Assembly: GCA_014860805.1 (NCBI GenBank)
Contig: JACZJB010000236.1
Coordinates: forward strand, 1 to 38,859
Reading direction: 5' to 3'
DNA from: Anaerolineales bacterium
GTDB lineage: Bacteria; Chloroflexota; Anaerolineae; Anaerolineales; Villigracilaceae
DNA length: 38,859 bases
Program-made: the position numbers and the translations under genes
Shown: piece by piece, positions 1 through 16,916 of the stretch
How the letters are laid out: the number at the start of each line of letters is the position of its first letter
How positions within the stretch are numbered: position 1 is the first letter of the stretch
The notes under the pieces: generated by a model
The model's database searches: none
Told to the model about the DNA's origin: nothing
Seen by the model: only the letters and a program-made list of their open reading frames with translations

Positions 1-1
1 C

Positions 2-160
2 GTATATGATGTAACCGATTGCCCCAAGTGGCGGTTGGACATGCACGAATGGCTGCACTTTCCCGGGCAGGACCTCACCAGCGAATTGCCCGACGCGCCG
101 CATAAAGAGGAAGTTTTCAAACACGACTGCGTTAAAATTATCGGCAAGCTGGAAGGCTAA
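2..160 (+). CDS. Cytochrome b5-like haem/steroid-binding domain protein (C-terminal fragment)
   Basis: Partial gene cut off by the window edge; only the last 52 residues are visible, in the frame starting at base 2 and ending with TAA at 158-160. The peptide opens VYDVTDCPKW, continues with a HEWLHFPGQDLTSEL stretch and then DAPHKEEVF. This matches the second half of the soluble cytochrome b5-like binding domains, in which an H-x(n)-PGxDLT block is followed by an APH segment. Such domains bind haem or a steroid-like ligand; which one applies cannot be told from the fragment. The gene ends 28 bp before the GH13 enzyme. The assignment rests on a short fragment. Confidence 0.7.
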   Translation, partial: VYDVTDCPKWRLDMHEWLHFPGQDLTSELPDAPHKEEVFKHDCVKIIGKLEG

Positions 161-188
161 AATTAATCCTCTCAAGGAATTTCACCTT

Positions 189-1910
189 ATGTCTTCTCTT
201 AAATGGTGGCAAACCGCTGTCTTTTATCAAATCTATCCGCGTTCGTTTGCAGACGGCAACGGCGATGGCATTGGCGACTTTAAAGGCGCAACCGAAAAGC
301 TGGATTATCTCACCGCCCTTGGCGTGGACGCGATCTGGCTTTCACCCCACTTTCCATCTCCCAATTGGGATTGCGGCTATGATATCTCAGATTATTGCAG
401 CGTTGCACCCGAATATGGGACATTGGATGATTTCAAGAACTTCCTGAACGAATCACATAAACGGAACATCCGCGTCATTCTGGACCTCGTGCTGAATCAC
501 ACCTCCGATGAGCATCCGTGGTTCATCGAGTCAAAATCCAGCCGTGATAACCCCAAAGCGGATTGGTACGTCTGGGTGGATGCCCCGCCGAATAATTGGC
601 AATCCTGTTTTGACGGCAATGCCTGGACCTACGCCACCGAACGCGATCAATACTATTATCATTATTTTATGAAGCAGCAGCCAGATTTAAATTGGCATAA
701 CCCTAAAGTTAAACAAGCCATGTGGGATGCGGTCCGCTTCTGGCTGGATATGGGCGTGGACGGCTATCGCCTTGATGCAATTGGAACAATCTTTGAAGAC
801 CCAAACTTAACTCCACATACCGTCCCCATGAATCTGGCTGAGCTCCGCCGTTTTTCCGAGCTTGCCCAGACCCCTGAAGATATGGAGTTGAAGGAAAAAT
901 ACTGGCATGACATGTTCAAGCATCAGTGGGGGCAGGACGGCGTGCACGAGTTAATGAAGGAACTACGCTCCATTCTTGACGAATATGACGGTGATCGGAT
1001 GCTCGTCGGTGAAGACGATAATATTGATTACATGGGAAATGGCAAGGATGAACTACATCTTGTCTTCAATTTTCCGCTGATGAGAACCGAAAAACTTACA
1101 CCCGAGCATATTCGAAAAAATCAAACGGAAAGACTGTCCAGCCTGCAGGCTTTATCGGCAGAAAAGGGCTGGCCCTGCAATACGCTGGGCAATCACGATT
1201 GTTCCCGCATCTACACTCGCTTTGGCAGTAAACTGCACGGGCCTGAACTCGCTCGATTGCACGCCGCGCTTGTCTTAACCTTGAAAGGCACGCCATTTCT
1301 TTACAACGGGGAAGAGATCGGTATGACAGATCACCTGCTGACTGAGATTTCGCAGGTGAAAGATACGATGGGCGTCTGGTATTACCATACCATCGTTACA
1401 GAAATGGGAGTTCATCCTGATGAAGCAATGGTGCGTACCGCCGAAATGACGCGCGACAAAAACCGCACACCCATGCAATGGTCCAACAGCCCGAACGCGG
1501 GTTTCTCTCCCAAAGATGTAAGTACCTGGCTGCCAGTCAACCAAAACTACAAAGAAGGGATCAACGTTCACGACCAGGAAAAGAATCCAAGTTCCCTGCT
1601 TAATTACTATAAGCATCTGCTGCGGATTCGCAAAGAGTCTTCCGCCTTGAAAGAGGGAGAATATATTCCCTTGCAAAATACTACAGATGAATATTTCGCC
1701 TTCCTGCGCCACTCTGCTGAACAGATCGTTTTGGTTGTGTTGATTTTCTCTGAGAGCACGCTCGATATGGACTTCTCCAGTGTGAACGAAGTCAAGGATG
1801 CGAAGTTGAAACCCATCTTCTCAAGCGCCGAAAGAAGAAATGGTGAAACTGTGCCAAAGTTCAAGGTCAGTCCGTTTGAGGTGTACATCGCGGAAGTGAT
1901 TCGTGAGTGA
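189..1910 (+). CDS. GH13 alpha-glucosidase (oligo-1,6-glucosidase / maltase type)
   Basis: Predicted cytoplasmic glycoside hydrolase of family 13, 573 residues, the usual length for the alpha-glucosidase/trehalose synthase branch. The (beta/alpha)8 barrel starts at once (WWQTAVFYQIYPRSF, residues 6-20). The four classical regions are visible: DLVLNHT (99-105), GYRLDAIG with the nucleophile Asp196, VGEDDN with the acid/base Glu275, and LGNHD with the transition-state stabiliser Asp337. No signal peptide is seen. The protein should release glucose from short alpha-glucans or sucrose-like substrates; the exact bond specificity (alpha-1,4, alpha-1,6 or transglycosylation to trehalose) cannot be read from the motifs. 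The start follows an AAGGAA ribosome-binding site. The stop overlaps the next gene by 8 bp. Confidence 0.9.
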   Translation: MSSLKWWQTAVFYQIYPRSFADGNGDGIGDFKGATEKLDYLTALGVDAIWLSPHFPSPNWDCGYDISDYCSVAPEYGTLDDFKNFLNESHKRNIRVILDLVLNHTSDEHPWFIESKSSRDNPKADWYVWVDAPPNNWQSCFDGNAWTYATERDQYYYHYFMKQQPDLNWHNPKVKQAMWDAVRFWLDMGVDGYRLDAIGTIFEDPNLTPHTVPMNLAELRRFSELAQTPEDMELKEKYWHDMFKHQWGQDGVHELMKELRSILDEYDGDRMLVGEDDNIDYMGNGKDELHLVFNFPLMRTEKLTPEHIRKNQTERLSSLQALSAEKGWPCNTLGNHDCSRIYTRFGSKLHGPELARLHAALVLTLKGTPFLYNGEEIGMTDHLLTEISQVKDTMGVWYYHTIVTEMGVHPDEAMVRTAEMTRDKNRTPMQWSNSPNAGFSPKDVSTWLPVNQNYKEGINVHDQEKNPSSLLNYYKHLLRIRKESSALKEGEYIPLQNTTDEYFAFLRHSAEQIVLVVLIFSESTLDMDFSSVNEVKDAKLKPIFSSAERRNGETVPKFKVSPFEVYIAEVIRE

Positions 1911-2181
1911 GAACAAAACCAAACCTAAAATATTCGCCACGCTTTGCGGACGTGTCTACCGTGATGCCGACCCGAAGTATTTTCCATCCGCTGAGCATCG
2001 CGGACGCACTCTTCTCTTTTGCACGGACGCCTGTTTGGGCGCATTCCTCGCAGACCCTGATATTTTCTGCAAAGTACACCGTAATTCAGAGAAAATAATT
2101 TCAAGAGTGAAAGCCGAAACTCAAAGTTTTATCGGTAAGTGGAGAGACGATGATCCTTCCGAGCAAGTCAATTCAGTATGA
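1903..2181 (+). CDS. Small YHS-like metal-binding domain protein
   Basis: Protein of 92 residues with a GTG start inside the last codons of the glucosidase gene; its 3' end overlaps the fdhD start by 32 bp, so the three genes are translationally linked. The sequence shows a Cys-Gly-Arg-x-Tyr motif, then DPKYFPSAEHRGRTLLFCTDACLGAF in substance: two cysteines four residues apart, one upstream Cys near residue 15, and an ADPDIF segment. This is the layout of YHS/TRASH-type small metal-binding domains, which bind iron or soft metals. No catalytic residues are visible and the tail after residue 65 looks unstructured. Function is unknown; metal handling for the adjacent FdhD or a neighbouring enzyme is only a guess. 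Confidence 0.7.
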   Translation: MSENKTKPKIFATLCGRVYRDADPKYFPSAEHRGRTLLFCTDACLGAFLADPDIFCKVHRNSEKIISRVKAETQSFIGKWRDDDPSEQVNSV

Positions 2182-2923
2182 CAGATATGAATTCAAAAAG
2201 TGGGAGCATTTCAACGCCGAAACCATCGTTGAGACTCCCGTTTCATTAACGGTGAACGGTCAGGTGTGGATTACGTTCATGTGCACGCCCATTCACCTGG
2301 AAGCTTTGTCTGTGGGATTTCTCTTTAATGAAGGCATTATCCGAAGTATGGATGAGGTGGCGGACGCCCGCATATGTGAGCACGGCGATAACGTGGATGT
2401 GTGGTTGAATCACGATGCGGAGCAGCCGACAAATTGGCGCAGAACATCAGGCTGTACGGGTGGCGTGACGGCTGTTGACTTGTTAGCAAAGCCCGATGTC
2501 AGTTTCGGAGAGAACAAGCTCAAGGTCACGCCGGAAGCGATTATGGAGCTGGTCGAAAAGTTATTCGAGTCGCAGGAGCTTTATCGTGATACGGGCGGCG
2601 TGCACACATCCGCATTATGTGACAGTGAAAAAGTTTTGGTTGCTGCGGACGACATCGGCAGGCACAATACTTTGGACAAAATCGCGGGGTTGTGTTTGAT
2701 GAAAAACATCTGGCCCGAAAACCGCATCCTCATTACAACGGGACGCATCAGTTCCGAGATGCTGCAAAAAGCCGCCGCGCTCAACGCACCGATCTTGATC
2801 TCGCGCACGTCCCCATCATCGCTTTCAATTGAAATGGCGGAGCGATATGGAATTACATTGATCGGTTATGCAAGAAAGCACCGCTTCAATGTTTATTCGA
2901 ACGCGCAAAGAGTAGGCTTGTAG
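2150..2923 (+). CDS. fdhD: FdhD sulfurtransferase (formate dehydrogenase accessory protein)
   Basis: 257 residues, near the length of E. coli FdhD. FdhD passes sulfur from a cysteine desulfurase to the Mo/W-bis-MGD cofactor and is required for active formate dehydrogenase. Recognised by the N-terminal ETPVSLTVNG block, the EGIIRS segment, the TGGVHTSAL motif (148-156), the AADDIGRHNTLDKI block (165-178) and the ISSEMLQKAA segment. The family's sulfur-carrying loop is present as SGCTGG with Cys102, but the second Cys of the E. coli-type CxxC motif is Gly here. No formate dehydrogenase catalytic subunit is in the window; the NuoG-like protein at 11203 has no Sec/Cys active site. A strong terminator follows, so fdhD is not cotranscribed with the hydrogenase locus. 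Confidence 0.92.
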   Translation: MILPSKSIQYDRYEFKKWEHFNAETIVETPVSLTVNGQVWITFMCTPIHLEALSVGFLFNEGIIRSMDEVADARICEHGDNVDVWLNHDAEQPTNWRRTSGCTGGVTAVDLLAKPDVSFGENKLKVTPEAIMELVEKLFESQELYRDTGGVHTSALCDSEKVLVAADDIGRHNTLDKIAGLCLMKNIWPENRILITTGRISSEMLQKAAALNAPILISRTSPSSLSIEMAERYGITLIGYARKHRFNVYSNAQRVGL

Positions 2924-2931
2924 GACAACCA

Positions 2932-2958
2932 AACCGCTTCTAATGAAGCGGTTTTTTC
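2932..2958 (+). terminator. Intrinsic terminator after fdhD
   Basis: A 9-bp perfect stem, AACCGCTTC and GAAGCGGTT, closes a TAAT loop and runs into a T-tract. It starts 8 bp after the fdhD stop and separates the glucosidase/fdhD group from the hydrogenase locus. Confidence 0.9.
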
Positions 2959-2961
2959 TGT

Positions 2962-2988
2962 TATACTTGATTGTGAAATTTGTCACGA
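2962..2988 (+). promoter_or_regulatory. Promoter -10 with Rex/CRP-like operator ahead of the hydrogenase signalling block
   Basis: TATACT at 2962-2967 is a good -10 hexamer; no convincing -35 is seen. Three bases further starts an inverted repeat, TTGTGAAATTTGTCACGA (2971-2988), covering the expected transcription start. It differs at only two positions from the element at 5646-5663. The half-sites TTGTGA/TCACAA fit both the Rex consensus (TTGTGAA-N4-TTCACAA, one mismatch at position 12) and the CRP/FNR consensus (TGTGA-N6-TCACA). Its place downstream of the -10 suggests repression. Confidence 0.55.
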
Positions 2989-3116
2989 AAGAGACGGGAC
3001 ATCCATCTTCACAAAGCATGAGTAATGAAACTTACCAAAACAGATAAGGTAGGGAATAATTTAATTGCAGTCTTATTAATGGCAATCATTGAAACATCGA
3101 AAGGAAATTTCTTTAT

Positions 3117-3476
3117 ATGAAGCTGAATGAGATCATCAAATTAGTGGAAGGCACCATCCTCACTCCGGAGCTCAACTTTAATATCAACATCCATGGCGGG
3201 TATGGCGCGGACTTAATGAGCGATGTGCTGGCAGCCAGCCAGCCCAATGCGGCTTTGTTGACGGGACTCACCAACCCACAAGTGGTGCGCACTGCTCAAA
3301 TGGCGGATTTTCGCGCCATCATTTTTGTGCGCGGCAAACAGCCGCAACGCGAGACTCTCGAACTTGCCAATCAGGAAAAGATGCCGCTGATCACCAGCCC
3401 GCTTGGAATGTTCGAATTATGCGGACGGCTGCACAAAGCCGGCCTGCCAAGCTTTGAATTAAATGCCTCCGAATAG
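3117..3476 (+). CDS. DRTGG domain protein (first copy)
   Basis: 119 residues, a stand-alone DRTGG domain. The conserved core is the GGYGADLMSDVLA stretch (about residues 28-40) followed by a beta-alpha-beta pattern (AALLTGL, then AIIFVRGKQP) and LITSPLGMFELCGRL near the end. DRTGG domains are found next to CBS pairs and in phosphotransacetylases and are thought to bind a regulatory ligand; none is proven. No catalytic residues are visible. The 3' end overlaps the CBS/HATPase gene by 14 bp, so the two are translationally coupled. A similar domain is encoded at 4474, giving an arrangement DRTGG, CBS-HATPase, DRTGG, PHP. The ATG lies 12 bp after AAAGG, a weak ribosome-binding site. Confidence 0.82.
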   Translation: MKLNEIIKLVEGTILTPELNFNINIHGGYGADLMSDVLAASQPNAALLTGLTNPQVVRTAQMADFRAIIFVRGKQPQRETLELANQEKMPLITSPLGMFELCGRLHKAGLPSFELNASE

Positions 3477-4470
3477 AATCCGCACCGAGCAGGAAGTTTA
3501 TGGACGGCATGGTCGCCCCATCACAGACCAGGACGCCCACGAGATCAACCGCGTGGAGGAGCTATCCTACGATCTAAAGATCCACGAGGTGATGTCTAAG
3601 AATTTACATACAGCCAGTCCTGAGATCTCGCTATCGGATGTGTTGAAAATATTACGCATCAATCGAATCTCAGGAGTCCCTGTTGTTGAAGATGACAAAC
3701 TGGTCGGTGTGATTAGCATTGAAGATATTGTGCGCGCACTACGGAACAATGATTTGACGGAAACTGTCGCCCAATACATGACCCGCGAACTTGTCACTGT
3801 TGCCAGCTACGACTCCATCGTCAAAGCCATGCAGACCTTCACCGAGAGACACGTGGGACGCCTGCCTGTGGTGAATGAAGAAAAAAAGCTGGTGGGGATG
3901 ATCACCAAGGGCGACATCACCCGCGGTATCTTGGTGGCACTTCAAAAAGATTACAAAGAAGAAGAAGTACGCCGCTACAGAGCCAGCCATCTTTTTGAAG
4001 ACATTGTCTCCGACCGCACCACTCTCGTACTGCGCTACAACATTAAATCCCAGAACTTCACCCATGGCGGGACAGCGTCCAGCCATATCAAACGCGCCCT
4101 GCTGCGCCTCGGGGCAGATGCCCAAATCGCCCGCCGCTGCGGCATCGCAGTGTACGAAGCTGAAATGAATCTCATCATCCACACTACGCACGGCGGAATT
4201 CTCAAACTGGAAGTGGAGCCGCACCGCATTACGATGTCCACAACGGATGACGGACCGGGCATTCCCGATGTAGAACAAGTTCTCCAACCCGGTTACTCCA
4301 CCGCCACCGACCAGGTCCGCGAAATGGGATTCGGCGCAGGCATGGGCCTGGTAAACATCAAACGCTGTGTGGACAGCATGGATCTTGAATCAACAGTTGG
4401 CAAAGGCACCAAACTTGTCATGCGGATCCATATCCCAACCGAAAATTTAAGTGGACGCAAAGAGGAATAA
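3463..4470 (+). CDS. CBS-pair / anti-sigma-type HATPase fusion protein
   Basis: 335 residues with two recognisable parts. Residues about 38-165 hold a tandem CBS pair (VMSKNLHTASPEISLSDV with RISGVPVVEDDKLVGVIS; then YMTRELVTVASYDSIVKA with HVGRLPVVNEEKKLVGMIT), a module that usually binds AMP, ATP or related nucleotides. Residues about 195-325 form a GHKL ATPase of the RsbW/SpoIIAB serine-kinase type: N-box EAEMN, G1 box DDGPGIP, G2 box GFGAGMGL. No HisKA or DHp domain is present. A sensor protein kinase or partner-switching regulator that reads adenylate charge is a reasonable inference. Its place between two DRTGG genes and upstream of the hydrogenase subunits suggests it controls that enzyme, but the target is unknown. 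Confidence 0.85.
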   Translation: MPPNRIRTEQEVYGRHGRPITDQDAHEINRVEELSYDLKIHEVMSKNLHTASPEISLSDVLKILRINRISGVPVVEDDKLVGVISIEDIVRALRNNDLTETVAQYMTRELVTVASYDSIVKAMQTFTERHVGRLPVVNEEKKLVGMITKGDITRGILVALQKDYKEEEVRRYRASHLFEDIVSDRTTLVLRYNIKSQNFTHGGTASSHIKRALLRLGADAQIARRCGIAVYEAEMNLIIHTTHGGILKLEVEPHRITMSTTDDGPGIPDVEQVLQPGYSTATDQVREMGFGAGMGLVNIKRCVDSMDLESTVGKGTKLVMRIHIPTENLSGRKEE

Positions 4471-4473
4471 ACC

Positions 4474-4815
4474 ATGAACCTTCAACAGATCATTGAACGC
4501 CTCAGTCTCAAACTGTTAACTGATTCGCGCGATCTCGCATCCATCCGCCCTGCAGGCGGATACACCTCTGACTTACTTTCCTGCGTGATGGCTGGAGCAA
4601 AAAGCAAATACATCTGGGTCACTTTGCAGGCGCATTTGAATATTGTCGCCGTTACAGCTTTGCTGGATGTGGCAGCTGTCATCATCACCGAGAATGCCCA
4701 GCCTGACCCAGCCACGATCGCCAAAGCCAACGAGCAGGGAGTTATCCTGCTCTCCACTTCCATGCCAAACTTTGAGGTGGATGGAAAACTCTGGGAAATG
4801 GGCATTCGCAATTAA
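4474..4815 (+). CDS. DRTGG domain protein (second copy)
   Basis: 113 residues, a second stand-alone DRTGG domain that starts 3 bp after the CBS/HATPase stop. It keeps the GGYTSDLLSCVMAGA core (residues about 28-42) and the IWVTLQAHLNIVAVTALLD segment typical of the family, then AAVIITENAQP and an ILLSTSMPNFEVDGKL end. It is more typical than the copy at 3117, whose corresponding region (AALLTGLTNPQVVRTAQ) has diverged, so the two may form a heteromer or bind different ligands. No enzyme motifs are visible. Followed after 12 bp by the PHP gene. Confidence 0.84.
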   Translation: MNLQQIIERLSLKLLTDSRDLASIRPAGGYTSDLLSCVMAGAKSKYIWVTLQAHLNIVAVTALLDVAAVIITENAQPDPATIAKANEQGVILLSTSMPNFEVDGKLWEMGIRN

Positions 4816-4827
4816 CTCCGGCAGACC

Positions 4828-5580
4828 ATGAAAGAATTTCGCGCCGACCTGCATGTCCACACAGTGCTTTCACCGTGTGCGGAAGTGGAAATGATCCCAC
4901 CATTAATCGTGCAAGAAGCGCTCAAATACAAGATCGACATCATTGCCATTACAGACCATAACGCCAGCGCAAATGTGCATGCGGTACAAAAAGCTGCACA
5001 CGGCACTTCATTGAAAGTATTGGCGGGCATGGAAGTGCAGTCACGCGAGGAAGTACATCTCTTGTGTTTGTTTGAGAACTTAAACGAACTTGCCATCTGG
5101 CAGTCCATGGTGGATGAGGCACTGCCTGAGATGCAAAACAATGCCGATCTCTTTGGCGAGCAATATGTGGTGGATGAAAGCGGCGAATTAATTCACATCG
5201 AGCCGCGCATGCTGCTGACATCCGTTCATTTTTCGATTGACGAAATCTTCAAGCAAGTCAATGCTTTGGGTGGACTCGTCATCCCTGCGCATGTGAACCG
5301 AAGCAGCAACGGCCTCTTCCCTACCCTGGGGCTGCTCTCCGACAAATGGCCAATCCTGGCGCTGGAAATTTCCCGCCATCTCACACCTGAAAAAGCAATT
5401 AATATCTTCCCCGCCATACAAGGAATCCCCCTTATCCAAAGCGGCGACGTGCATCAATTGGACCAGTTTTTAGGAACAACGATCTTCACACTAGCCAAAC
5501 CCACAATCGAAGAGATCAGGATGGCATTTAAAGGGGAAAACGGGCGAAATGTTTACATTCAGCCAAAACAAATTGCCTGA
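4828..5580 (+). CDS. PHP domain phosphoesterase
   Basis: 250 residues, the PHP (polymerase and histidinol phosphatase) metal-dependent phosphoesterase fold. Visible metal ligands: DLHVHT with His9 and His11, AITDHNA with Asp43 and His44, IPAHVNR in the middle, and SGDVHQLDQF near the C-terminus. Substrate is unknown; relatives hydrolyse phosphoesters or nucleotide products. The gene completes the DRTGG/CBS-HATPase/DRTGG/PHP block. From memory, PHP genes of this kind sit beside HATPase and DRTGG genes in [FeFe]-hydrogenase operons of Clostridia and Thermotogae. It could turn over a phospho-signal made by the HATPases. A gap of 104 bp with an operator separates it from the first NuoE gene. Confidence 0.88.
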   Translation: MKEFRADLHVHTVLSPCAEVEMIPPLIVQEALKYKIDIIAITDHNASANVHAVQKAAHGTSLKVLAGMEVQSREEVHLLCLFENLNELAIWQSMVDEALPEMQNNADLFGEQYVVDESGELIHIEPRMLLTSVHFSIDEIFKQVNALGGLVIPAHVNRSSNGLFPTLGLLSDKWPILALEISRHLTPEKAINIFPAIQGIPLIQSGDVHQLDQFLGTTIFTLAKPTIEEIRMAFKGENGRNVYIQPKQIA

Positions 5581-5613
5581 CAACATGCACCCATCAGCAC
5601 GTGACATTGGTCA

Positions 5614-5663
5614 TTGACGATATAAAACAGTATGATAAACTATGTTTGTGAAAATTGTCACAA
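5614..5663 (+). promoter_or_regulatory. Promoter region with perfect Rex/CRP-like palindrome ahead of the first NuoE gene
   Basis: The perfect inverted repeat TTGTGAAAATTGTCACAA (5646-5663; 6-bp arms, 6-bp spacer) ends 21 bp before the ATG at 5685. Upstream are TTGACG (5614-5619) and, 16 bp on, a weak -10-like TAAACT (5636-5641), so the operator would cover the transcription start, as at 2971-2988. It fits TGTGA-N6-TCACA (CRP/FNR family) fully and the Rex consensus with one mismatch. Two similar elements in one locus argue for one shared regulator. Confidence 0.6.
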
Positions 5664-5684
5664 TACTTATAAAAGGTATTCATT

Positions 5685-6197
5685 ATGACGCGACTGTTAA
5701 AAGAAATCTCCGCTACCGACCCGCTTAGCGTTGCGGAACAAAAATTAATCATTGACACGGCAATTACAGAGAACAAGGAACGCCCCGGTGCAGTAATGTT
5801 GGTGCTCAATGAAGTTCAAGGCAAAATCGGACACGTCTCCCCTCCCATGCAGGCTTACATTGCTCATAAATTGAATGTGCCGCTTGGTCAGGTGCATGGC
5901 GTCGTCACGTTTTACTCCTTCTTCAAAACGAAGCCGCGCGGTAAACACACCATCAAGTTTTGTTTAGGGACAGCCTGCTACGTAGCCGGCGTGCCGCAAT
6001 TGATCGAAAAAGCCAAACAAATGCTGGATATTGATCTCGGAGAAACTACTCCCGATGGTGAGATTACGCTGGAAGAATGCCGCTGCGTGGGAGCATGCAG
6101 CCAGGCCCCTGTTGTCGTTGTAGATGAAGAAGTTCAGGGGAAGTTGAAACCAAATAAATTTCCGCAAGTGTTGAAGAAGGTGCAAAAGCCGTCATGA
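5685..6197 (+). CDS. hndA: NuoE/HndA-type [2Fe-2S] subunit of the hydrogenase (module A)
   Basis: 170 residues, the usual length for the 24-kDa thioredoxin-like subunit of NADH-linked diaphorases. An N-terminal helical part is followed by a thioredoxin-like domain with all four cluster ligands: FCLGTAC (Cys93, Cys98) and CRCVGAC (Cys134, Cys138). The VVTFYSFF and KPRGKHTIKFC blocks are family hallmarks. In HydABC-type enzymes this subunit (HydC/HndA) pairs with HydB/HndC and is essential for electron flow from the flavin. Its partner is most likely the protein at 7169. The gene starts behind an operator and an AAAAGG ribosome-binding site and overlaps the next gene by 4 bp (ATGA). Confidence 0.92.
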   Translation: MTRLLKEISATDPLSVAEQKLIIDTAITENKERPGAVMLVLNEVQGKIGHVSPPMQAYIAHKLNVPLGQVHGVVTFYSFFKTKPRGKHTIKFCLGTACYVAGVPQLIEKAKQMLDIDLGETTPDGEITLEECRCVGACSQAPVVVVDEEVQGKLKPNKFPQVLKKVQKPS

Positions 6198-6763
6198 GAG
6201 AGATCGCGCTGCATCTGATGGATATTGCGGAGAACAGCGTCGCTGCTGAAGCGCGGAACGTTAGCATTGAAGTCCACGAAAATCTGCAAAGCGACTTGCT
6301 CAAAGTAATTGTTACAGATGACGGGCGCGGCATGGACGAAGAAACCGCAAAACAGGTACTGGATCCATTCTATACCACGCGCACGACGCGCAAAGTAGGG
6401 CTGGGAATTCCGCTTTTGAAATTGGCCGCGGAAATGTCTGAAGGTGGATTAAGTCTGGTTTCAGAAGCAGGTAAAGGCGCAAAAATCGAGGCGCACTTTC
6501 GTCACAGCCATATTGACCGCATGCCGCTTGGCGATCTGGCGTCCACGTTCCTGGCATTACTGGTTTCCCATCCAAAGATCCATTGGGTGTTCGATTATCG
6601 GACAACTGACAAAAATGGAAACGTTGATAATTTTGAATTCGACGACACTGAATTGAAAAAAGAACTGGGTGAAGTTTCGATCACGGAACCCGAAATATTG
6701 AAGTTTGTACGCGGACTCATCGAAGAAGGCATTCGAGCGTCCGCTTTGCAAACAACTGTCTAA
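6194..6763 (+). CDS. Stand-alone HATPase (GHKL) regulator inside the hydrogenase operon
   Basis: 189 residues. The GHKL ATP-binding domain fills residues 1-110: N-box DIAENSV, G1 box DDGRGMD, G2 box GLGIPLL. It lacks a HisKA/DHp domain, sensor domain or membrane segment. Residues 110-189 (about IDRMPLGDLASTFLALL onward) form a C-terminal extension I do not recognise. It starts within the stop codon of the NuoE gene (4-bp overlap) and lies 12 bp ahead of hndB, so it is made with the electron-transfer subunits. Genes of this type lie between NuoE and HndB homologues in several anaerobes' hydrogenase operons (recalled). Possible roles are a protein kinase for a hydrogenase subunit or an ATP-dependent assembly factor; neither is shown. 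Confidence 0.83.
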   Translation: MREIALHLMDIAENSVAAEARNVSIEVHENLQSDLLKVIVTDDGRGMDEETAKQVLDPFYTTRTTRKVGLGIPLLKLAAEMSEGGLSLVSEAGKGAKIEAHFRHSHIDRMPLGDLASTFLALLVSHPKIHWVFDYRTTDKNGNVDNFEFDDTELKKELGEVSITEPEILKFVRGLIEEGIRASALQTTV

Positions 6764-6775
6764 AAAGGAGAAAAC

Positions 6776-7144
6776 ATGCCCGCCATTAAATCCCTGGAAG
6801 AATTAAAGCGCGTACGTGAAGAGGCGCTTCAGAAAAAGAAGATGAAAGCCACACCGGGCAACGTGCAAGTCATAGTTGCAATGGGCACTTGTGGAATAGC
6901 AGCCGGCGCACGCGACACGATGAAAAGCGTTTTGAGTTTTATCGAATCAAACAGCCTGAGCGGTATAACCGTCACACAGACTGGATGCATTGGTATGTGC
7001 GAGCAGGAACCGATCATGCAGGTAGTGATCGGGGATCAGCCCAAAGTTGTTTATGGAAAAGTAAATGCGGAAGTTGCGGAACAGATCATGAAACAGCACG
7101 TGCAAAACGGGATACCTGTAAAGGATTATGTCTTGCCTTTGTAA
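6776..7144 (+). CDS. hndB: HndB-like thioredoxin-fold [2Fe-2S] ferredoxin
   Basis: 122 residues, a (2Fe-2S) ferredoxin-domain protein of the HndB type. After a basic helix (EALQKKKMKA) comes the signature VAMGTCGIAAGARD with Cys39, then TGCIGMCEQEP with Cys71 and Cys75. The position of the first cluster ligand in other thioredoxin-like ferredoxins is Ala35 here (AMGTC rather than C-x4-C), leaving three cysteines. The MGTCGIAAGA form is, as far as I recall, common in HndB homologues. HndB is a subunit or accessory of the NADP- or NAD-linked hydrogenase of Desulfovibrio type. A good AAAGGAG site precedes the start. hndC follows after 24 bp. Confidence 0.85.
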   Translation: MPAIKSLEELKRVREEALQKKKMKATPGNVQVIVAMGTCGIAAGARDTMKSVLSFIESNSLSGITVTQTGCIGMCEQEPIMQVVIGDQPKVVYGKVNAEVAEQIMKQHVQNGIPVKDYVLPL

Positions 7145-7168
7145 CATCTAAGGTTTTCGGAGTTTATT

Positions 7169-8953
7169 ATGGCGTTTTATCGTTCTCATGTTTTAGTGTG
7201 TGTTGACCCGCAGTGCCTTGCAAAAGGCGCTCATGAAATTGTCGATGCATTGCAGGATGAATTTGTTGCACAAGGGTTGATCGACGAAATCCAGGTACTG
7301 GAAACTTCCCGCATCGGCGGCTGCAGTGACGGCCCGGAGATGATGGTATATCCCGAGGGTGTTCACTATCACGGCATGACCACAGATGACGTCCCGTTTT
7401 TGGTAGAAGAGCATTTCCTAAAAGGCCGCATTGTGGAGCGCTTCCGCGAAGTGGTCAAACCAGTGATTGACGAGGAACTCGGTCCATTGCGCCCAAAGGA
7501 AGTACGCGTTGTTTTACGCAACTGCGGCGAGATTGACCCAAACAATATTGAAGATTATCTTGCGGCCGATGGTTATCAGGCGCTCGGCAAAGCTTTGTTT
7601 GAAATGACCCCTGAAAAAGTGATTGACGAAGTTGTCAGCTCAGGTTTGCGCGGACGAGGCGGCGCCGGCTTCCCTGCCGGCAAAAAATGGGCGATCACCC
7701 GGCAAGTTGAAGACAACCCGAAATACATGATCTGCAATGCCGATGAAGGCGACCCCGGTGCGTTCATGAATCGACGCGTGCTTGAAGGAGATCCGCATTC
7801 TGTGATCGAAGGCATGATCATTGGCGGGTATGCCGTCGGCGCGAGCTATGGATACATTTATTGCCGCGCTGAGTACCCTGTTGCCGTGGAAACTCTCAAT
7901 ATTGCCATCAAACAGGCGCGTGAATTTGGCTTCCTTGGAAACAATATCCTCGGTACTGATTTCAATTTTGACCTTGAAGTACGCGTCGGCGCGGGCGCAT
8001 TCGTATGCGGCGAAGAGACTGCTTTAATGGCTTCCATTATGGGTAAGCGCGGCGAGCCTACTCCACGTCCGCCGTTTCCATCAGTGAGAGGCGTGTGGGG
8101 CAAACCCAGCAATAACAATAACGTTGAGACCTATTCCAACGTACCGCAGATCATTTTGAAAGGCGCTCCCTGGTACGCCAGCATGGGAACGGAGCGATCC
8201 AAAGGCACAAAGACTTTTGCCGTCGGCGGGAATGTTGTCAAGCCAGGTTTGATCGAAGTGCCAATGGGAATTTCGCTGAGAGAAATCATCTTTGAAGTAG
8301 CCGGCGGAATCAAAGACGGCAAGAAATTCAAAGCTGTACAAACGGGCGGACCCATGGGCGGTTGTCTCACTGAACAGCACCTTGACCTGCCTCTTGATTA
8401 CGAAGCATTAACTCAAGCTGGTTCGATGATGGGTTCTGGTGGTCTCGTGGTAATGGATGAAGCCTCCTGCATGGTGGATATCGCCCGCTTCTTCATGGAC
8501 TTTACGCAGGCTGAGTCGTGCGGAAAGTGCACCCCCTGCCGTGTGGGTACGCGCCGAATCCTTGAACTCCTGCAAAAAATCTGCGACGGAAAAGGTCAAG
8601 ACGGTGATATAGAAAAGTTGGAAAACCTATGCCACGAAGTTGCTCGCAATAGTCTTTGCGGGCTTGGTCAAGGCGCGCCAACTCCTGTACTGAGCACACT
8701 CAAACATTTCCGTCATGAATATGAAGCGCATATTTACGAAAAACGCTGTCCTGCAAAAGTCTGCCGCCCATTGATCCGCTACGAAATTCAGGCTCCGACT
8801 TGTACAGGCTGCACCGTCTGCGCAAGAAACTGCCCCGTGGAAGCGATCAGCGGCGAGCGACGTCAGGCGCATCACATCGACGCCGAAACCTGCATCCGCT
8901 GCGGAATCTGTATGCAAGTCTGTAACTTCAACGCCATTGCCGTGGAATCTTAA
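7169..8953 (+). CDS. hndC: NuoF/HndC/HydB-type flavin subunit with C-terminal 2[4Fe-4S] ferredoxin domain (module A)
   Basis: 594 residues in four parts. An N-terminal thioredoxin-like domain (1-95) keeps Cys11, Cys16 and Cys52, but the fourth ligand position is Arg48. The FMN/NAD(H) domain has GLRGRGGAGFPAG and CNADEGDPGAFM, the latter being the HydB/HndC form. An SLBB domain precedes the N3-type [4Fe-4S] site (Cys451, Cys454, Cys457, Cys497). The C-terminal ferredoxin domain has two CxxCxxCxxxC motifs (Cys545-555 and Cys575-585). In bifurcating HydABC enzymes the corresponding HydB holds the flavin where electrons split between NAD and ferredoxin, and its C-terminal domain passes electrons to ferredoxin. 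This is the reason to suspect ferredoxin coupling here. Confidence 0.92.
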   Translation: MAFYRSHVLVCVDPQCLAKGAHEIVDALQDEFVAQGLIDEIQVLETSRIGGCSDGPEMMVYPEGVHYHGMTTDDVPFLVEEHFLKGRIVERFREVVKPVIDEELGPLRPKEVRVVLRNCGEIDPNNIEDYLAADGYQALGKALFEMTPEKVIDEVVSSGLRGRGGAGFPAGKKWAITRQVEDNPKYMICNADEGDPGAFMNRRVLEGDPHSVIEGMIIGGYAVGASYGYIYCRAEYPVAVETLNIAIKQAREFGFLGNNILGTDFNFDLEVRVGAGAFVCGEETALMASIMGKRGEPTPRPPFPSVRGVWGKPSNNNNVETYSNVPQIILKGAPWYASMGTERSKGTKTFAVGGNVVKPGLIEVPMGISLREIIFEVAGGIKDGKKFKAVQTGGPMGGCLTEQHLDLPLDYEALTQAGSMMGSGGLVVMDEASCMVDIARFFMDFTQAESCGKCTPCRVGTRRILELLQKICDGKGQDGDIEKLENLCHEVARNSLCGLGQGAPTPVLSTLKHFRHEYEAHIYEKRCPAKVCRPLIRYEIQAPTCTGCTVCARNCPVEAISGERRQAHHIDAETCIRCGICMQVCNFNAIAVES

Positions 8954-8998
8954 TCACATCTGTGCATGGCTTAAAAAAAATACGTGATCGGAGAATAA

Positions 8999-9496
8999 AT
9001 GACAGTTCAAACAATTGACCATGATGTTGTCTCAGTAGTCCAGGCTGCAATCGAAAAACATGGCAAGAATCGTGATGCAATGATCCCGGTCCTCAGTGAA
9101 ATCAACCGTGTGTTCGGATATGTTCCCAGAGAGGCGATTCAGGAAGTACGCAAGCAACTCCATGACCCCGCCAGGCAGGTTCATATCGCTGAAAGCCAAC
9201 TATACTCGTTGACCAGTTTTTACGACATGCTCTCCACCAAACCTCGCGGAAGGCATGTTATCAAGTTTTGCGAAAACGCCCCATGCCACGTAGTTGGCGG
9301 CAAGGCCATTTGGGATGGGTTGAGAGAAAAACTCAGTCTGGAAAACGGCGAAACCACACCAGACAACAAATGGACTTTGGTCACCACATCCTGCCTGGGC
9401 CTGTGCAGCGTAGGGCCAGTCCTGCTTATTGACGATGATATGTATGGCAACGTCACGCCTGAACAAATCTCTGAAATTTTGGAACATTACGAGTAG
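8999..9496 (+). CDS. hoxE: NuoE/HoxE-type [2Fe-2S] subunit (module B)
   Basis: 165 residues, a second NuoE-family protein. All four ligands are kept: FCENAPC (Cys91, Cys96) and SCLGLCS (Cys132, Cys136). The fold hallmarks QLYSLTSFYDMLS and KPRGRHVIKFC are present. It is clearly diverged from the copy at 5685, for example in a shorter C-terminus and LLIDDDMYGNV in place of VVVDEEVQGKL. It lies 9 bp before the HoxF-like gene and begins the order E-F-(G/U)-Y-H, as in cyanobacterial hoxEFUYH. In those enzymes HoxE helps electron exchange of the diaphorase. The ATG follows GGAG at a spacing of 7 bp. Confidence 0.9.
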   Translation: MTVQTIDHDVVSVVQAAIEKHGKNRDAMIPVLSEINRVFGYVPREAIQEVRKQLHDPARQVHIAESQLYSLTSFYDMLSTKPRGRHVIKFCENAPCHVVGGKAIWDGLREKLSLENGETTPDNKWTLVTTSCLGLCSVGPVLLIDDDMYGNVTPEQISEILEHYE

Positions 9497-9505
9497 GAGC
9501 CGATC

Positions 9506-11146
9506 ATGATCAAAAAACGTGCAATGGTACTGGTCTCCAACGATCCTGAAAGCATCCGCCTGGGCGCAAATGAGATCGTGCAGCACCTAAATGAAGCCCT
9601 CGTCACATACGGCATACAGGATGAAGTGGATGTCTCCACTGTTTCAGATGTGAATCACTCCAATATTCTTCCATTGGTCGTCGTCTATCCCGAAGCAGTG
9701 GTCTATGGCCCTGTCAAAGCCTCGGATGTGCGCTATTTGGTGGAAGAACATCTATACAAGGGACGTGTTGTCGATGACCTGCTTGCGCCACCCAAAATGT
9801 TGACTGGGCAGATCGGCTGGCTCCGTGGACATAAAGGCTACAATCCTGCCGAGCATCGCATCGTACTGGAACGTGCAGGCCGCATCGACCCTGAAAATAT
9901 CGAAGAATATATCACGGCAAACGGGTACGAAGCCCTTGGAAAAGTATTGAGCGAAATGACACCTGAAAGTGTCATAGAAGTCGTTGAAAAATCAGGGCTG
10001 CAAGGACGCGGCGGCGCGGGTTTCCCTACCGGCCGCAAATGGAAGTTCGTCCGCGCCGCTCAGGGTAGTAAAAAGTATATCGTCTGCAACGCAGATGAGA
10101 GCGAGCCCGGAACGTTCAAAGACCGCATCGTGCTCGAAGGTGACCCGCATGTCATCATCGAATCAATGGCAATTGCCGCGTATGCGATCGGCGCGGATGA
10201 AGGTTACATTTATATTCGCGGTGAATATGGCCTTGCATATCGCCGCCTTGAAAAAGCCATTCTTCAAGCCAGAGAATTTGGTTTCCTCGGGAAAAATATC
10301 TTTGGGACAGAGTTCAACTTTGATATTCATATCCACGCTGGCGCTGGCGCGTATGTCTGCGGTGAAGAGACAGCGTTGCTTGAATCTCTGGAAGGCAAAC
10401 GCGGCGAACCACGTTCGAGACCTCCCTACCCCGTCACTAAAGGCTTGTGGAACAAACCGACGTCCGTTAACAATGTAGAGACTCTTGCAAACATTCCCGC
10501 GATCGTCAGAAACGGCGCAGAGTGGTACCGCTCGATTGGCACACCCTCCAGCCCCGGCACAAAAGTGTACACGATCATGGGCAACGTCAATTTCAGCGGT
10601 GTGATCGAAGTGCCGATGGGTGTTACTCTGCGTGAGGTCATCAACATCTATGCAAAAGGAATGAAACCTGGCAGCACGCTCAAACTTGCACAGACGGGTG
10701 GAAGCAGCGGCTCGATCATTCCTGCGGTGCTGCAAGACACTCCCATGGATTTCGAGTCCTTCCGCAAAGCAGGCGTTTCGCTCGGCTCGGGCGCATTGTT
10801 GATCTGCGACCAGAACACATGCATCGTGGACCTCGTCAAAGTCCTTTTGCAATTCTTCCGCTTCGAATCATGCGGAAAATGCACACCCTGTCGTGTCGGC
10901 ACCCAGCGTTCTTATGAAATCGTGGATCGCATTTCAAAGGGACAGGGAAAACTGGAAGAATTGGATACGCTTTTGGAGTTGGCTGCAGAAATGGAACGCG
11001 CTTCCAACTGCGGCCTCGGGCAGACTGCCACAGTCCCGATCCGCGACATGCTCAAGCATTTCCGCACGGAAGTGGAAGCGCACATTCGCTCCGGCAGCTG
11101 TCCCACAGGCATCTGTGAGATGGCGCAAGAAGTTGAAAAAGTCTAA
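9506..11146 (+). CDS. hoxF: NuoF/HoxF-type flavin subunit without ferredoxin domain (module B)
   Basis: 546 residues. The FMN/NAD(H) domain is intact (GLQGRGGAGFPTG, then CNADESEPGTFKDR, the form seen in complex I NuoF and HoxF), as are the SLBB region and the N3-type cluster ligands Cys456, Cys459, Cys462 and Cys502. The N-terminal thioredoxin-like domain (1-95) is kept in sequence pattern but has lost every cluster cysteine: VLVSNDPES stands where the 7169 protein has VLVCVDPQC, and no Cys occurs before VVVYPE. The C-terminal ferredoxin domain is absent; the protein ends soon after SCPTGIC. It should reduce NAD(P) or oxidise NAD(P)H and pass electrons via the NuoG-like subunit. Differences from the first copy suggest a different acceptor or purely structural role for the N-domain. 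Confidence 0.92.
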   Translation: MIKKRAMVLVSNDPESIRLGANEIVQHLNEALVTYGIQDEVDVSTVSDVNHSNILPLVVVYPEAVVYGPVKASDVRYLVEEHLYKGRVVDDLLAPPKMLTGQIGWLRGHKGYNPAEHRIVLERAGRIDPENIEEYITANGYEALGKVLSEMTPESVIEVVEKSGLQGRGGAGFPTGRKWKFVRAAQGSKKYIVCNADESEPGTFKDRIVLEGDPHVIIESMAIAAYAIGADEGYIYIRGEYGLAYRRLEKAILQAREFGFLGKNIFGTEFNFDIHIHAGAGAYVCGEETALLESLEGKRGEPRSRPPYPVTKGLWNKPTSVNNVETLANIPAIVRNGAEWYRSIGTPSSPGTKVYTIMGNVNFSGVIEVPMGVTLREVINIYAKGMKPGSTLKLAQTGGSSGSIIPAVLQDTPMDFESFRKAGVSLGSGALLICDQNTCIVDLVKVLLQFFRFESCGKCTPCRVGTQRSYEIVDRISKGQGKLEELDTLLELAAEMERASNCGLGQTATVPIRDMLKHFRTEVEAHIRSGSCPTGICEMAQEVEKV

Positions 11147-11202
11147 TCAATTAATTTACAAGTCAAACTAGTTGAGATCAAAACTTCAACACAGAGGTAT
11201 GT

Positions 11203-13182
11203 ATGGTGAAAATAACGATTAACGAAAAACAGATCGAAGTCCCCGAAGGAACAACGGTCTTACGTGCCGCAGACATGGCGGGGATCCACATCCCAAGGCT
11301 TTGCGATCACAAGGAACTCACACCCTATGGCGGCTGCCGCCTGTGCATTGTGGATGTGGAAGGCGCACGGGTGCCGATGGCTTCCTGCACGCTGCCTGTG
11401 AATAACGGAATGGTTGTTCACACAGAGACGGAAGCGATCAAGAAGTCGCGTGAATTCATTCTCTCCATGCTCTTCAGCGAGCGCAACCACTTCTGCCCCT
11501 TCTGTCAGGTCAGCGGCGGCGATTGCGAATTACAGAATGCCGCCTATCACGAAGAAATGACCCACTGGCCCATTCAACCAGGCTGGAGCGATTTCAAAGT
11601 AGATACGACCCATCCATACTTCGTCCTGGATAACAACCGCTGCATTCTCTGCCGACGCTGCGTACGCGCCTGCGGTGAAATGGTGGGCAATTTCACACTT
11701 TCCGTTGCAGAACGCGGCGCCGCCGGCATCATCGTTGCGGACACTGATGTTCCTTTGGGCGAAAGTACTTGTATCAAATGCGGTACCTGTGTGCAGGTTT
11801 GCCCCACAGGCGCCCTGATCGACCGCGTGAGCGCCTATCAGGGACACGACGAAAGCCTCGAAGAGATCAAATCGATCTGCGCTGGCTGTTCCGTTGGCTG
11901 CGCCACCAAGATCATGGTTCGCAACAACCGCATCGTCCGCATCGAAGGCGACTGGGATGGCGCTGTCAATCACGGTTTGCTTTGCGAACATGGACGCTAC
12001 GACCCCGTCACTGAATCCCGCAAACGAATCACCGCTCCGCACATGCGCAAGAACGGCAAACTTGAACCCGTCTCCTGGGATGAAGCCATGAGCGCCGTAG
12101 CGAACAAATTAATGGAAGACAAAAGCGGCATTGCAGCCATTGCATCCACAAGATTGCCGGCCGAAACTCTTACCGCGTTCAAAGAATTATTCGTGGAAAA
12201 ATTCCAAAGCAAACTTGTCACCAGCACCGAAGAAGGCGTACCCACCGAAGCTGTCACCCGCTTTGCTCAAAAGAATGAAGCCTTCGAAGGAAAGCTCGAT
12301 GTCCTGCGCAACGCCGACACCGTCATGTGCATTGGCGCGAACATTCACCGCAGTCACATGGTAGCTGGCTTCACGTTCAAACGTAACTTGTCCAAAGGCA
12401 CACGCTTGATCACAATCGACCCCGAAACCAGTGACCTGGATTACATGGCAAACATCGCACTGAAGACTCAGCCTGGCTCAGACCTCGCGCTCATTCGAGG
12501 ACTGCAAGCTGTCATCGTGCAAGAGAACTTGGGACGCGCGCCTCTTTCCCTGCCCAACGCAGGCCAGCTCATCGAAAAAGCTGTCAGCGCCGCTGGTGTT
12601 TCTCTCGAAGAACTCAAGCAAACAGCGGAGTTATTGGCGCGTTCCATCTCGCCAGTGATCCTGTTTGGAAAAGGCATCACTGCCCAACGCGACGAGACCC
12701 TCGTCGAAGAGTTACACCGCCTGGCTGTTTTGGTCGGCGCAGTGGATAGTGAACGCCGCGGCTTGATCTCCATCAAGGGAGAATCCAACAGCCTAACCGC
12801 CACGTTGCTTGGTATGGACAAAGCCTTCGACCTGAACGGACAAAAAGTGGTTTATGCCGCAGTGGGAGATGATTATGTTTCAAAGTCTCTGGTGGAGCGG
12901 GTTTCCAAAGCGCCATATCTTGTGGTGCAGGCTTCCTACGAATCCAAACTGACCGAAGAAGCGGACATCATTTTGCCCGTTACGATCTGGGCTGAACAGG
13001 AAGGTCACTACATCAATTTGGATGGACGCACGCAAATGGCACACAAATCCCTCACTCCGCCCGAGACGGTGCGCGAGAACATCGCAGTTTTGAACGAAAT
13101 TGCACTGCGCACGAACGTGACCATAAAATCCGATTGGCAAAAAGCCATTCTGGCGCGCAAATCAAGCGTTGCGTTGAATTAA
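11203..13182 (+). CDS. NuoG-like iron-sulfur subunit (in place of HoxU/HydA)
   Basis: 659 residues, the electron wire between diaphorases and hydrogenase dimer. Clusters in order: plant-type [2Fe-2S] (Cys34, 45, 48, 62); His-Cys [4Fe-4S] (His96, Cys98, 101, 108); two ferredoxin clusters (Cys147-157 and Cys190-200); and a molybdopterin-oxidoreductase-type [4Fe-4S] (Cys226, 229, 233, 261), equivalent to N7. From about 275 a degenerate molybdopterin-binding region follows, with no Sec/Cys active-site motif, so Mo catalysis is not expected. HoxU of standard Hox enzymes is only about 240 residues, and [FeFe] HydA would carry an H-cluster; neither applies. The length and make-up resemble NuoG or the HydA of [NiFe] HydABCSL-type enzymes. 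The gene sits directly before hoxY. Confidence 0.88.
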   Translation: MVKITINEKQIEVPEGTTVLRAADMAGIHIPRLCDHKELTPYGGCRLCIVDVEGARVPMASCTLPVNNGMVVHTETEAIKKSREFILSMLFSERNHFCPFCQVSGGDCELQNAAYHEEMTHWPIQPGWSDFKVDTTHPYFVLDNNRCILCRRCVRACGEMVGNFTLSVAERGAAGIIVADTDVPLGESTCIKCGTCVQVCPTGALIDRVSAYQGHDESLEEIKSICAGCSVGCATKIMVRNNRIVRIEGDWDGAVNHGLLCEHGRYDPVTESRKRITAPHMRKNGKLEPVSWDEAMSAVANKLMEDKSGIAAIASTRLPAETLTAFKELFVEKFQSKLVTSTEEGVPTEAVTRFAQKNEAFEGKLDVLRNADTVMCIGANIHRSHMVAGFTFKRNLSKGTRLITIDPETSDLDYMANIALKTQPGSDLALIRGLQAVIVQENLGRAPLSLPNAGQLIEKAVSAAGVSLEELKQTAELLARSISPVILFGKGITAQRDETLVEELHRLAVLVGAVDSERRGLISIKGESNSLTATLLGMDKAFDLNGQKVVYAAVGDDYVSKSLVERVSKAPYLVVQASYESKLTEEADIILPVTIWAEQEGHYINLDGRTQMAHKSLTPPETVRENIAVLNEIALRTNVTIKSDWQKAILARKSSVALN

Positions 13183-13201
13183 AGGACAAAGAGAGTATCT
13201 C

Positions 13202-13744: not shown

Positions 13745-13756
13745 GAGATTTTACAA

Positions 13757-15184: not shown

Positions 15185-15269
15185 AATATTTTTACATCAC
15201 ACGAAAACAGCCAAAACTTTAGAGATACCGTCGCTCATCGTTCCTCAAATTTTATCAAAGGAGTCTGAC

Positions 15270-15716: not shown

Positions 15717-15746
15717 GACATTATCCTTAATTCTTAAAAGGTAAAA

Positions 15747-15771
15747 CTGGAAGGTTTTGTCTGCCTTCCAG
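15747..15771 (+). other. Inverted repeat between CBS gene and hoxW
   Basis: CTGGAAGG and CCTTCCAG form a perfect 8-bp stem with a 9-base loop, 30 bp after the CBS stop and 14 bp before the TTG of the protease gene. There is no T-tract, only AATATTTAG, so it may be an attenuator or an mRNA-stabilising hairpin rather than a full terminator. Confidence 0.45.
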
Positions 15772-15785
15772 AATATTTAGTTAAA

Positions 15786-16909: not shown

Positions 16910-16916
16910 CGCACTC

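Follow-up and report, generated by a model that had tools for sequence, protein, structure and literature searches.

The cassette and its genes

We examined a stretch of 38,859 nucleotides (hereafter the window) from contig JACZJB010000236.1 of GCA_014860805.1, a draft assembly of 274 contigs from an Anaerolineales bacterium of the Chloroflexota. In a cluster at 3117-8953, all on the + strand, a set of signalling-type genes that we call the cassette interleaves with genes for HydB and HydC, the predicted core of a bifurcating hydrogenase. The cluster begins with DRTGG1, a small DRTGG-fold protein of 119 aa (3117-3476; called from Pfam DRTGG, its relatives and its fold). It continues with a CBS pair fused to an RsbW/SpoIIAB-like GHKL ATPase (CBS::RsbW, 335 aa, 3463-4470; CBS 1.3e-31 over two stretches, HATPase_c 1.6e-10), DRTGG2 (113 aa, 4474-4815; Pfam DRTGG) and a PHP-domain phosphoesterase (250 aa, 4828-5580; PHP 1.2e-9). 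Then come HydC, also termed BfuC or NuoE1 (5685-6197; 2Fe-2S_thioredx 3.4e-46), a lone GHKL ATPase here called HATP (189 aa, 6194-6763; HATPase_c 3.4e-13), an HndB-type thioredoxin-like [2Fe-2S] protein (122 aa, 6776-7144; 2Fe-2S_thioredx 3.1e-5, at 24.3 bits slightly below the cut-off of 24.8; 2Fe-2S ferredoxin model NF041612 2.2e-10) and HydB, or BfuB, with an N-terminal thioredoxin-like part and a C-terminal 2x[4Fe-4S] domain (7169-8953; 7t2r_B 6.3e-252). Neighbouring open reading frames (ORFs) in the cluster are spaced by -14 to +104 bp, the lower extreme being the overlap between the end of DRTGG1 and the start of CBS::RsbW, and the gene order recurs in relatives of the window. A first-pass annotation made from the sequence had named these ORFs, and ORF coordinates and Pfam confirmed the presence, position and common strand of every one. 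The same-strand series extends to 16827, adding HoxEF-like, NuoG-like, [NiFe], CBS and protease genes to the cassette and HydB.

Linkage to HydB

A HATP-family profile, run against 301 Chloroflexota genomes, matched 14 of them, once each, at E<=1.9e-66, in clean separation from the only three other matches, which lie in frames 693-744 aa long (2.6e-22 to 7.7e-21). For all 14 HATP genes a HydB-profile match lay on the same strand at a distance of 390 to 1443 bp, a proximity whose chance is about 0.5% per gene by our own arithmetic (at most four HydB matches in a genome of ~4 Mb). Within the window's genus, the four drawn genomes with HATP have HydB, and the four without it (G026, G032, G138, G012) gave no HydB match at 1e-150. 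We also took the best 80 of at least 591 HATP matches, a set that overlaps our other loci (L046 and L070, for example, come from the same contig); only for the trees did we collapse identical sequences. HydB lay within 4 kb in 64 of these 80. For the 51 HATP loci flanked on each side by 4 kb or more of sequence, HydB was found within 4 kb in 41 and at 5.8 and 8.9 kb in two, with none in the stretch for the other eight.

The converse fails. Twenty HydB loci from places without HATP, hand-picked from HydB-search rows with near-duplicates omitted and several on short contigs, were all devoid of HATP, RsbW-like and PHP matches, and their partners included [FeFe], [NiFe] and formate dehydrogenase. 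The association between cassette and HydB is one-way: because all 20 of these loci lack it, the cassette marks particular HydB lineages. The first-pass proposal that the cassette follows the HydB-type diaphorase is thus borne out from the side of the cassette, by all 14 Chloroflexota HATP genes, but not from the side of HydB, and even the former has exceptions among the well-covered loci.

As regards INDEPENDENCE from the catalytic subunit, our observations support the cassette's accompanying the HydB core rather than any single catalytic subunit. The partners seen were [NiFe] hydrogenase, formate dehydrogenase and [FeFe] hydrogenase, and in three close relatives of the window (L045, L046, L048) the cassette stands beside formate dehydrogenase instead of [NiFe] genes. 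A tree built from 127 HydB rows places the window in a clade of 52 (SH-aLRT 100), every row of which has the cassette; the partners there were [NiFe] in 37, formate dehydrogenase in nine and not determined in six, with at least seven changes between the two enzymes. The unselected part of this clade, 11 genomes of the draw, had HATP throughout. Over the whole tree the cassette label requires seven changes (mean of shuffled labels 20.6), one of them due to the contig end at L172, and the partner label 14. That the cassette follows the diaphorase rather than the catalytic subunit, as the first-pass annotation had suggested, is therefore upheld by the variety of partners and by their repeated exchange within a single HydB clade. 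Its companion claim, that the set is typical of [FeFe] operons, fared less evenly: the cassette is common beside [FeFe] HydABC in the phylum that we label Clostridia-type, but Firmicutes sets usually lack the CBS fusion and have a separate HydS-like protein instead.

Some cassette neighbourhoods reach beyond hydrogenase and formate dehydrogenase. At L142 (9148-16554), DRTGG, CBS::RsbW and HndB-like genes directly precede RnfC and further rnf-like genes; at L159 (9312-15186; also L161 and L163 by their maps), DRTGG, RsbW-like and PHP genes lie between complex I and [NiFe] genes with no HydB in the stretch; and a Rex-type gene adjoins the HydB-less cassettes of L097, L107 (both by Pfam) and L110 (by eye). 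The common denominator of cassette neighbourhoods is NAD/ferredoxin redox machinery, with HydB the commonest partner.

Several observations concern the partner enzymes themselves. HydB-like proteins of ~1,040-1,050 aa occur in the cassette loci L045 (10405-13539), L094, L136, L137, L138, L194 and L196; in that of L045 the C-terminal Fer4 is replaced, by eye, by a part like GltD, the small subunit of NADPH:glutamate synthase. At L206 a 405-aa ORF with a DRTGG match lies upstream of a HydB locus of the formate dehydrogenase type, which has nothing else of the cassette. An in-frame TGA splits the formate dehydrogenase genes of L045 (16949-16951), L048, L053, L088, L152, L157, L158, L167, L174, L175, L177, L180, L181, L212 and L213 between DHCARL and H-x-x-TV, where L046 has Cys; judged from these sequences, the split genes probably encode selenocysteine enzymes.

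Predicted folds and nucleotide sites of the cassette proteins

Both window DRTGG ORFs score below the Pfam cut-off for the family (PF07085; 22.4 bits for DRTGG1 and 23.3 for DRTGG2 against 25.2), and theirs were the only two DRTGG matches in the genome. The call for DRTGG1 nonetheless stands, because its relatives and its predicted fold agree. All 25 relatives in the alignment match DRTGG at E<=0.01 (best 3.2e-9), and the model (mean pLDDT, the predicted local distance difference test, 92.1) has as its best PDB match 2ioj, described as 'Pfam DRTGG' (TM score 0.78 of the query, E 8.9e-7). The next matches, 3l2b and 3l31 (E 1.2e-5, TM 0.65), are the CBS-DRTGG region of the Clostridium perfringens CBS-pyrophosphatase, so that DRTGG1 is predicted to fold like the nucleotide-binding CBS-DRTGG unit of that enzyme. 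A passage in PMC10742508 describes the regulatory region of CBS-pyrophosphatase as binding Ap4A and AMP, with AMP and ADP inhibiting and diadenosine polyphosphates activating. A CBS pair is combined with DRTGG in both systems; in the window, however, separate genes encode them, with the CBS pair joined to a GHKL ATPase, and a pyrophosphatase domain is lacking, the ORFs at 3117-5580 giving no Pfam match to the catalytic DHH or DHHA2 domains.

CBS::RsbW resembles the RsbW/SpoIIAB anti-sigma kinases in its GHKL domain and matches the anti-sigma F factor model TIGR01925 (9.7e-14, 51.4 bits). It differs from them in scoring below the equivalog cut-off of 135, in its fused CBS pair and in having no STAS or sigma partner that we could find in the operon. 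Adenylate-binding CBS pairs have S/T-x-x-D as their nucleotide-site pattern. The family of the window's fusion shows it as GVISIED and GMITKGD, and G-h-h-[ST]-x-x-D is present in both CBS repeats of 73 of the 76 distinct fusions and in one repeat of the other three. The ATP-site patterns D-x-GPGI (75/76) and GxGxGL (76/76) are likewise conserved. Adenylate sensing, which the first-pass annotation had thought plausible from the CBS and ATPase domains, gains support from the CBS patterns and from the predicted DRTGG1 fold.

The PHP protein contains HxH, DHN, GxE, PAH and SxDxH, which we take to be metal-site patterns. HATP was modelled with a pLDDT of 90.6, lowest in a loop at about residues 61-70. 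Its best fold alignment was to the N-terminal GHKL ATPase of MutL (Z 13.1, root-mean-square deviation 3.2, 146 residues, model range 1-175, identity 18%), and all 50 alignments listed were to proteins of the MutL, PMS2/MLH1, topoisomerase VI-B and GyrB/ParE kinds; Foldseek listed MutL and histidine kinases side by side. By predicted fold, HATP appears to resemble MutL/GyrB over its whole length. Pfam found only HATPase_c and HATPase_c_3 in its 189 aa, with no phospho-acceptor histidine domain, and D-[DN]-G-x-G is kept in 135 of 140 family members. With moderate confidence, resting on the model, we take HATP for a small switch of the MutL/GyrB kind and not for a histidine-kinase fragment, although it is far from MutL in its length and low identity. 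A degenerate HATP lies beside formate dehydrogenase at L049 (8015-8572, - strand), its ATP site having lost G1 and G2 while the C-terminal half is kept.

CBS pair and HydS at the same position

Outside the Chloroflexota the usual order is DRTGG, a lone RsbW-like protein (~140-200 aa), a HydS-like protein (~420-480 aa), DRTGG and PHP; there the HydS-like protein usually takes the position of the window's CBS fusion. We placed the HydS-like proteins in group D on the grounds of size, absence of PAS and comparison with TamHydS, a group D, putatively sensory [FeFe] hydrogenase that has a histidine-kinase-like ATPase as neighbour, and not by a formal classifier. The likeness lies in the Clostridia-type HydS-like proteins, encoded between RsbW-like and DRTGG genes. 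The window, unlike these loci, has no HydS-like ORF (no HydS-profile match in 1-20000), and its RsbW-like protein carries the CBS pair. The same holds for the Chloroflexota generally: in all 13 loci of the draw with an RsbW-like protein, it carries a CBS pair and HydS is missing.

We searched two further phyla, labelled informally Deltaproteobacteria-type and Clostridia-type, with a profile of the fusion. In the former, 54 of 297 genomes had a match and 11 genes were fusions; in the latter, 125 of 299 and six. For comparison we sampled loci with a lone RsbW-like protein, 20 of 48 listed rows for the Deltaproteobacteria-type (every second from the top) and 20 of 120 for the Clostridia-type (every third from the top, omitting one already included). 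HydS lay beside none of the 11 Deltaproteobacteria-type fusions vs. 12 of the 20 lone RsbW (Fisher p 0.0014), and beside two of the six Clostridia-type fusions vs. 18 of the 20 (p 0.013), kinship being ignored in both tests. The two Clostridia-type lone loci without HydS (L172, L185) are both at contig ends. A third arrangement was seen at L168 and L169, where a separate CBS gene heads a cassette with lone RsbW and no HydS, beside DRTGG. In the best RsbW-domain tree, the fusions split into a large group, with Chloroflexota and Deltaproteobacteria-type members, and a number of small groups; the fusion label requires six changes, one of them coming from the partial row L077, and well-supported branches force only two. 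This is suggestive, and the CBS fusions may have arisen repeatedly.

The choice between HydS and CBS does not simply track the catalytic partner. A rule of HydS with [FeFe] and CBS with [NiFe] or formate dehydrogenase was rejected, HydS being found beside formate dehydrogenase at L152, L157, L158, L174, L175, L177, L180 and L181, and a CBS fusion beside [FeFe] HydA at L145 (also at L144, where HydA fails the canonical-motif test). The maturase HydF (TIGR03918) scored above cut-off in 20 of 70 genomes: in 0/14 Chloroflexota cassette genomes, 2/11 with Deltaproteobacteria-type fusions, 5/5 with Clostridia-type fusions, and 4/20 and 9/20, respectively, with lone RsbW. Its absence is a poor sign, because it was also missing in four of ten genomes whose locus has a canonical HydA. 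For the eight HydS-like loci linked to formate dehydrogenase listed above, no genome had HydF above cut-off (0/8); as only a lead, HydS in such cassettes may be an Fe-S sensor without the 2Fe subsite.

The hydrogenase and flanking genes

By sequence comparison, the window's enzyme is assigned to the NiFe-Bfu hydrogenases (NiFe-HydABCSL type), with an added NuoE/NuoF pair, because chains of Acetomicrobium mobile NiFe-HydABCSL (PDB 7t2r/7t30) are the best solved matches for HydB, the NuoG-like subunit and the large subunit, and because all five B2-cluster ligands are in place. These are C434, C472, H521, C527 and C532 of the window's HydB, aligned at a constant offset of 4 with C438, C476 (or T), H525, C531 and C536 of A. 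mobile HydB, the ligands named in a passage of Schut et al. (PMC9304861). As in the Bfu family, Fer4 matches follow (residues 540-592) and a HydC partner is present; the best solved match of the latter is 7q4v_C, from an [FeFe] enzyme, and the second is 7t2r_C, both of them HydC of bifurcating hydrogenases. The NuoG/HydA-like subunit with its molybdopterin-type domain (11203-13182; best solved match 7t2r_A, 1.1e-85) has no Pfam match to Fe_hyd_lg_C, and [NiFe] small (13202-13744; Oxidored_q6 1.4e-30) and large (13757-15184; NiFeSe_Hases 2.8e-28, 7t2r_D 7.2e-169) subunits are encoded at 13202-15184, as in the NiFe-HydABCSL type. The enzyme had been annotated as HoxYH-type; [NiFe] it is, but the label is loose, the nearest NCBIfam models of the two subunits being VhuG (small) and VhuA, both below cut-off.

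The second NuoE/NuoF pair (8999-11146) consists of a HoxE-like NuoE (8999-9496; 2Fe-2S_thioredx 9.3e-43) and a HoxF-like NuoF (9506-11146; Complex1_51K 1.3e-48, NADH_4Fe-4S 1e-29), and is absent from L047, L147, L148 and L193. This second NuoF has no Pfam match to Fer4, and so no C-terminal Fer4 tail, yet by eye keeps an AHI...C....C stretch resembling the B2 site. A hydrogenase maturation protease (15786-16274; TIGR00072 57.1 bits, cut-off 47.45; no Pfam match at 0.001) is flanked by genes for two stand-alone CBS-pair proteins (15270-15716, CBS 6.2e-28; 16312-16827, CBS 6.5e-26, start codon uncertain). The A. mobile operon, as described, shares the subunit matches and the B2 ligands and likewise has accessory genes (HydD, HydP, HisK); relative to it, the window adds two DRTGG proteins, CBS::RsbW, the NuoE/NuoF pair and two CBS proteins.

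Upstream of the cassette (1903-2923) are a small YHS-like ORF (below the Pfam cut-off) and FdhD (2150-2923), the latter in spite of a hydrogenase being the enzyme next to it; both are found again in other members of the genus. Beyond the operon, at 16866-21659, stand three similar large, secreted-looking ORFs in series, each with a LysM-like stretch by eye.

Proposed function and alternatives

As the likeliest single account, though a tentative one, we favour an adenylate-responsive, post-translational control module for the HydBC ('BfuBC') bifurcating core of the NiFe-HydABCSL-type hydrogenase. It draws on the observed gene order, HydB linkage, independence of the catalytic subunit, conserved ATP- and nucleotide-site patterns and fold matches. 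The close HydC/HATP junction, the separate CBS gene of L168 and L169, and the lack of sigma, STAS or DNA-binding matches among the 18 window ORFs scanned with Pfam also favour it. From the first group of observations we infer a ligand, a kinase activity, a target and a direction of effect, which would run as follows. The CBS pair on the RsbW-like GHKL ATPase, together with the two DRTGG proteins, would read adenylates (AMP/ATP, perhaps Ap4A) in the manner of the CBS-DRTGG insert of CBS-pyrophosphatase, but split over three proteins; in most Clostridia-type loci a HydS-like protein would hold the input position instead. Either by phosphorylating proteins on Ser/Thr or by binding, the RsbW-like protein, opposed by the PHP hydrolase, would set the state of HATP. 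This MutL/GyrB-like protein, made with HydC, would then open or close the mobile HydBC/HndB electron path. A broader version is possible but doubtful: that bifurcating enzymes carry a dedicated energy-charge sensor, a split CBS-DRTGG switch driving an RsbW-like kinase and a MutL-like gate on HydBC, with an exchangeable input (CBS pair, HydS-like Fe-S/H2 sensor or separate CBS protein) and one output machine for hydrogenases and formate dehydrogenases alike.

A number of our results weigh against post-translational control of HydBC in this form. Ten of the 51 well-covered HATP loci are without HydB within 4 kb, and cassette parts occur beside Rnf, complex I and Rex genes, so the target may be wider than HydBC. 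Most loci of the 52-row clade had been chosen for having HATP. Among the 14 Chloroflexota loci, DRTGG, RsbW and PHP are all missing from one with HATP and HndB (L193), and another (L195) lacks PHP. By sequence the best matches of HATP are histidine kinases, over about its first 100 residues only. Neither HisK nor HydD was a subunit of the purified A. mobile holoenzyme, according to a figure legend, and any contact must therefore be transient. As to the input, mutual exclusion of HydS and CBS fusion proved a tendency only: two of the six Clostridia-type fusions (L140, L145) keep HydS, eight of the 20 Deltaproteobacteria-type lone-RsbW loci have neither, and the independent pairs in the tree (two, on well-supported branches) gave no significant exclusion. 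Nor did the distribution of HydF bear out replacement of HydS by CBS where H-cluster maturation is missing, HydF being above cut-off in only two of the 12 HydS-bearing Deltaproteobacteria-type genomes.

Next in rank, and rather unlikely, is an assembly or maturation role, in which ATP-driven dimerisation of the MutL/GyrB-like HATP would insert FMN or Fe-S clusters or build HydBC, the other proteins gating by energy status. The HydC/HATP junction speaks for it: in the window the HydC stop and the HATP start share 4 bp, and the 67 loci measured had 11 overlaps and 46 gaps of <=20 bp, that is, overlap or near-contact in 57. In most mapped loci HATP is also placed amid hydC, hndB and hydB, its predicted fold resembles dimerising GHKL machines, and the part of Feng et al. 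(PMC8880783) on the A. mobile operon assumes for its three further genes, HydD, HydP and HisK, a function in 'maturation and/or regulation'. However, the 20 HydB loci that do without HATP argue against a general need for it in HydBC assembly, and cassettes without nearby HydB exist.

We consider transcriptional partner switching improbable. Here the RsbW-like protein would act, as anti-sigma factor or as kinase, upon a sigma factor or STAS protein encoded at a distance; its match to the anti-sigma F factor model and the Rex-type repressor genes adjoining HydB-less cassettes might suggest this. In Thermoanaerobacterium, moreover, a section of PMC5707799 reports that deletion of hfsB, a related putative sensory hydrogenase, raised ethanol yield and ADH activity and went along with higher adhE expression; the hfsB system is a relative and not the cassette itself. 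Yet the 18 window ORFs scanned with Pfam (1903-16827) had no match to sigma, STAS or DNA-binding domains, and interleaving with hydC and hydB is left unexplained. Least probable of all is a role in signal-nucleotide or phosphate-ester metabolism, the PHP protein making or removing a small nucleotide read by DRTGG and CBS and the HydB linkage being co-regulation only, since this accounts neither for the two GHKL ATPases nor for the close interspersion of cassette and redox genes, even though PHP matches the TrlF, RNase RNM and 3',5'-nucleoside bisphosphate phosphatase models (all below cut-off) and CBS and DRTGG folds bind nucleotides (a passage in PMC10742508). Adenylate-gated post-translational control thus stays ahead, followed by the assembly role of HATP and then by partner switching.

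Significance

Parts of this picture were already known: NiFe-HydABCSL itself, its unexplained accessory genes, and HydS beside bifurcating hydrogenases with a histidine-kinase-like ATPase (described in a passage of PMC8163306). Coupling of HydABC to a [NiFe] enzyme with HisK, HydD and HydP has been published for A. mobile and is not new in itself. In the open-licence PMC literature on DRTGG with hydrogenase, PHP domain or HATPase, we found no description of the full cassette; one paper had both DRTGG and hydrogenase, and it concerned another gene. Relative to that literature, what appears new is the cassette as a whole, its lack of attachment to any one catalytic subunit, the CBS and HydS input alternatives, the parallel with CBS-pyrophosphatase and the MutL-like reading of HATP.

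Electron bifurcation sets how anaerobes split energy among NADH, ferredoxin, H2 and formate. As to its switching, the A. mobile accessory genes have assumed functions only, and the authors of the TamHydS work, in a passage of PMC8163306, themselves raise the question of the signalling route. Should the module prove to be a switch on a shared HydBC, gated by adenylates or H2, such questions would become testable with a few small soluble proteins, and its exchangeable input parts, CBS and HydS, would, if truly so, offer a natural comparison.

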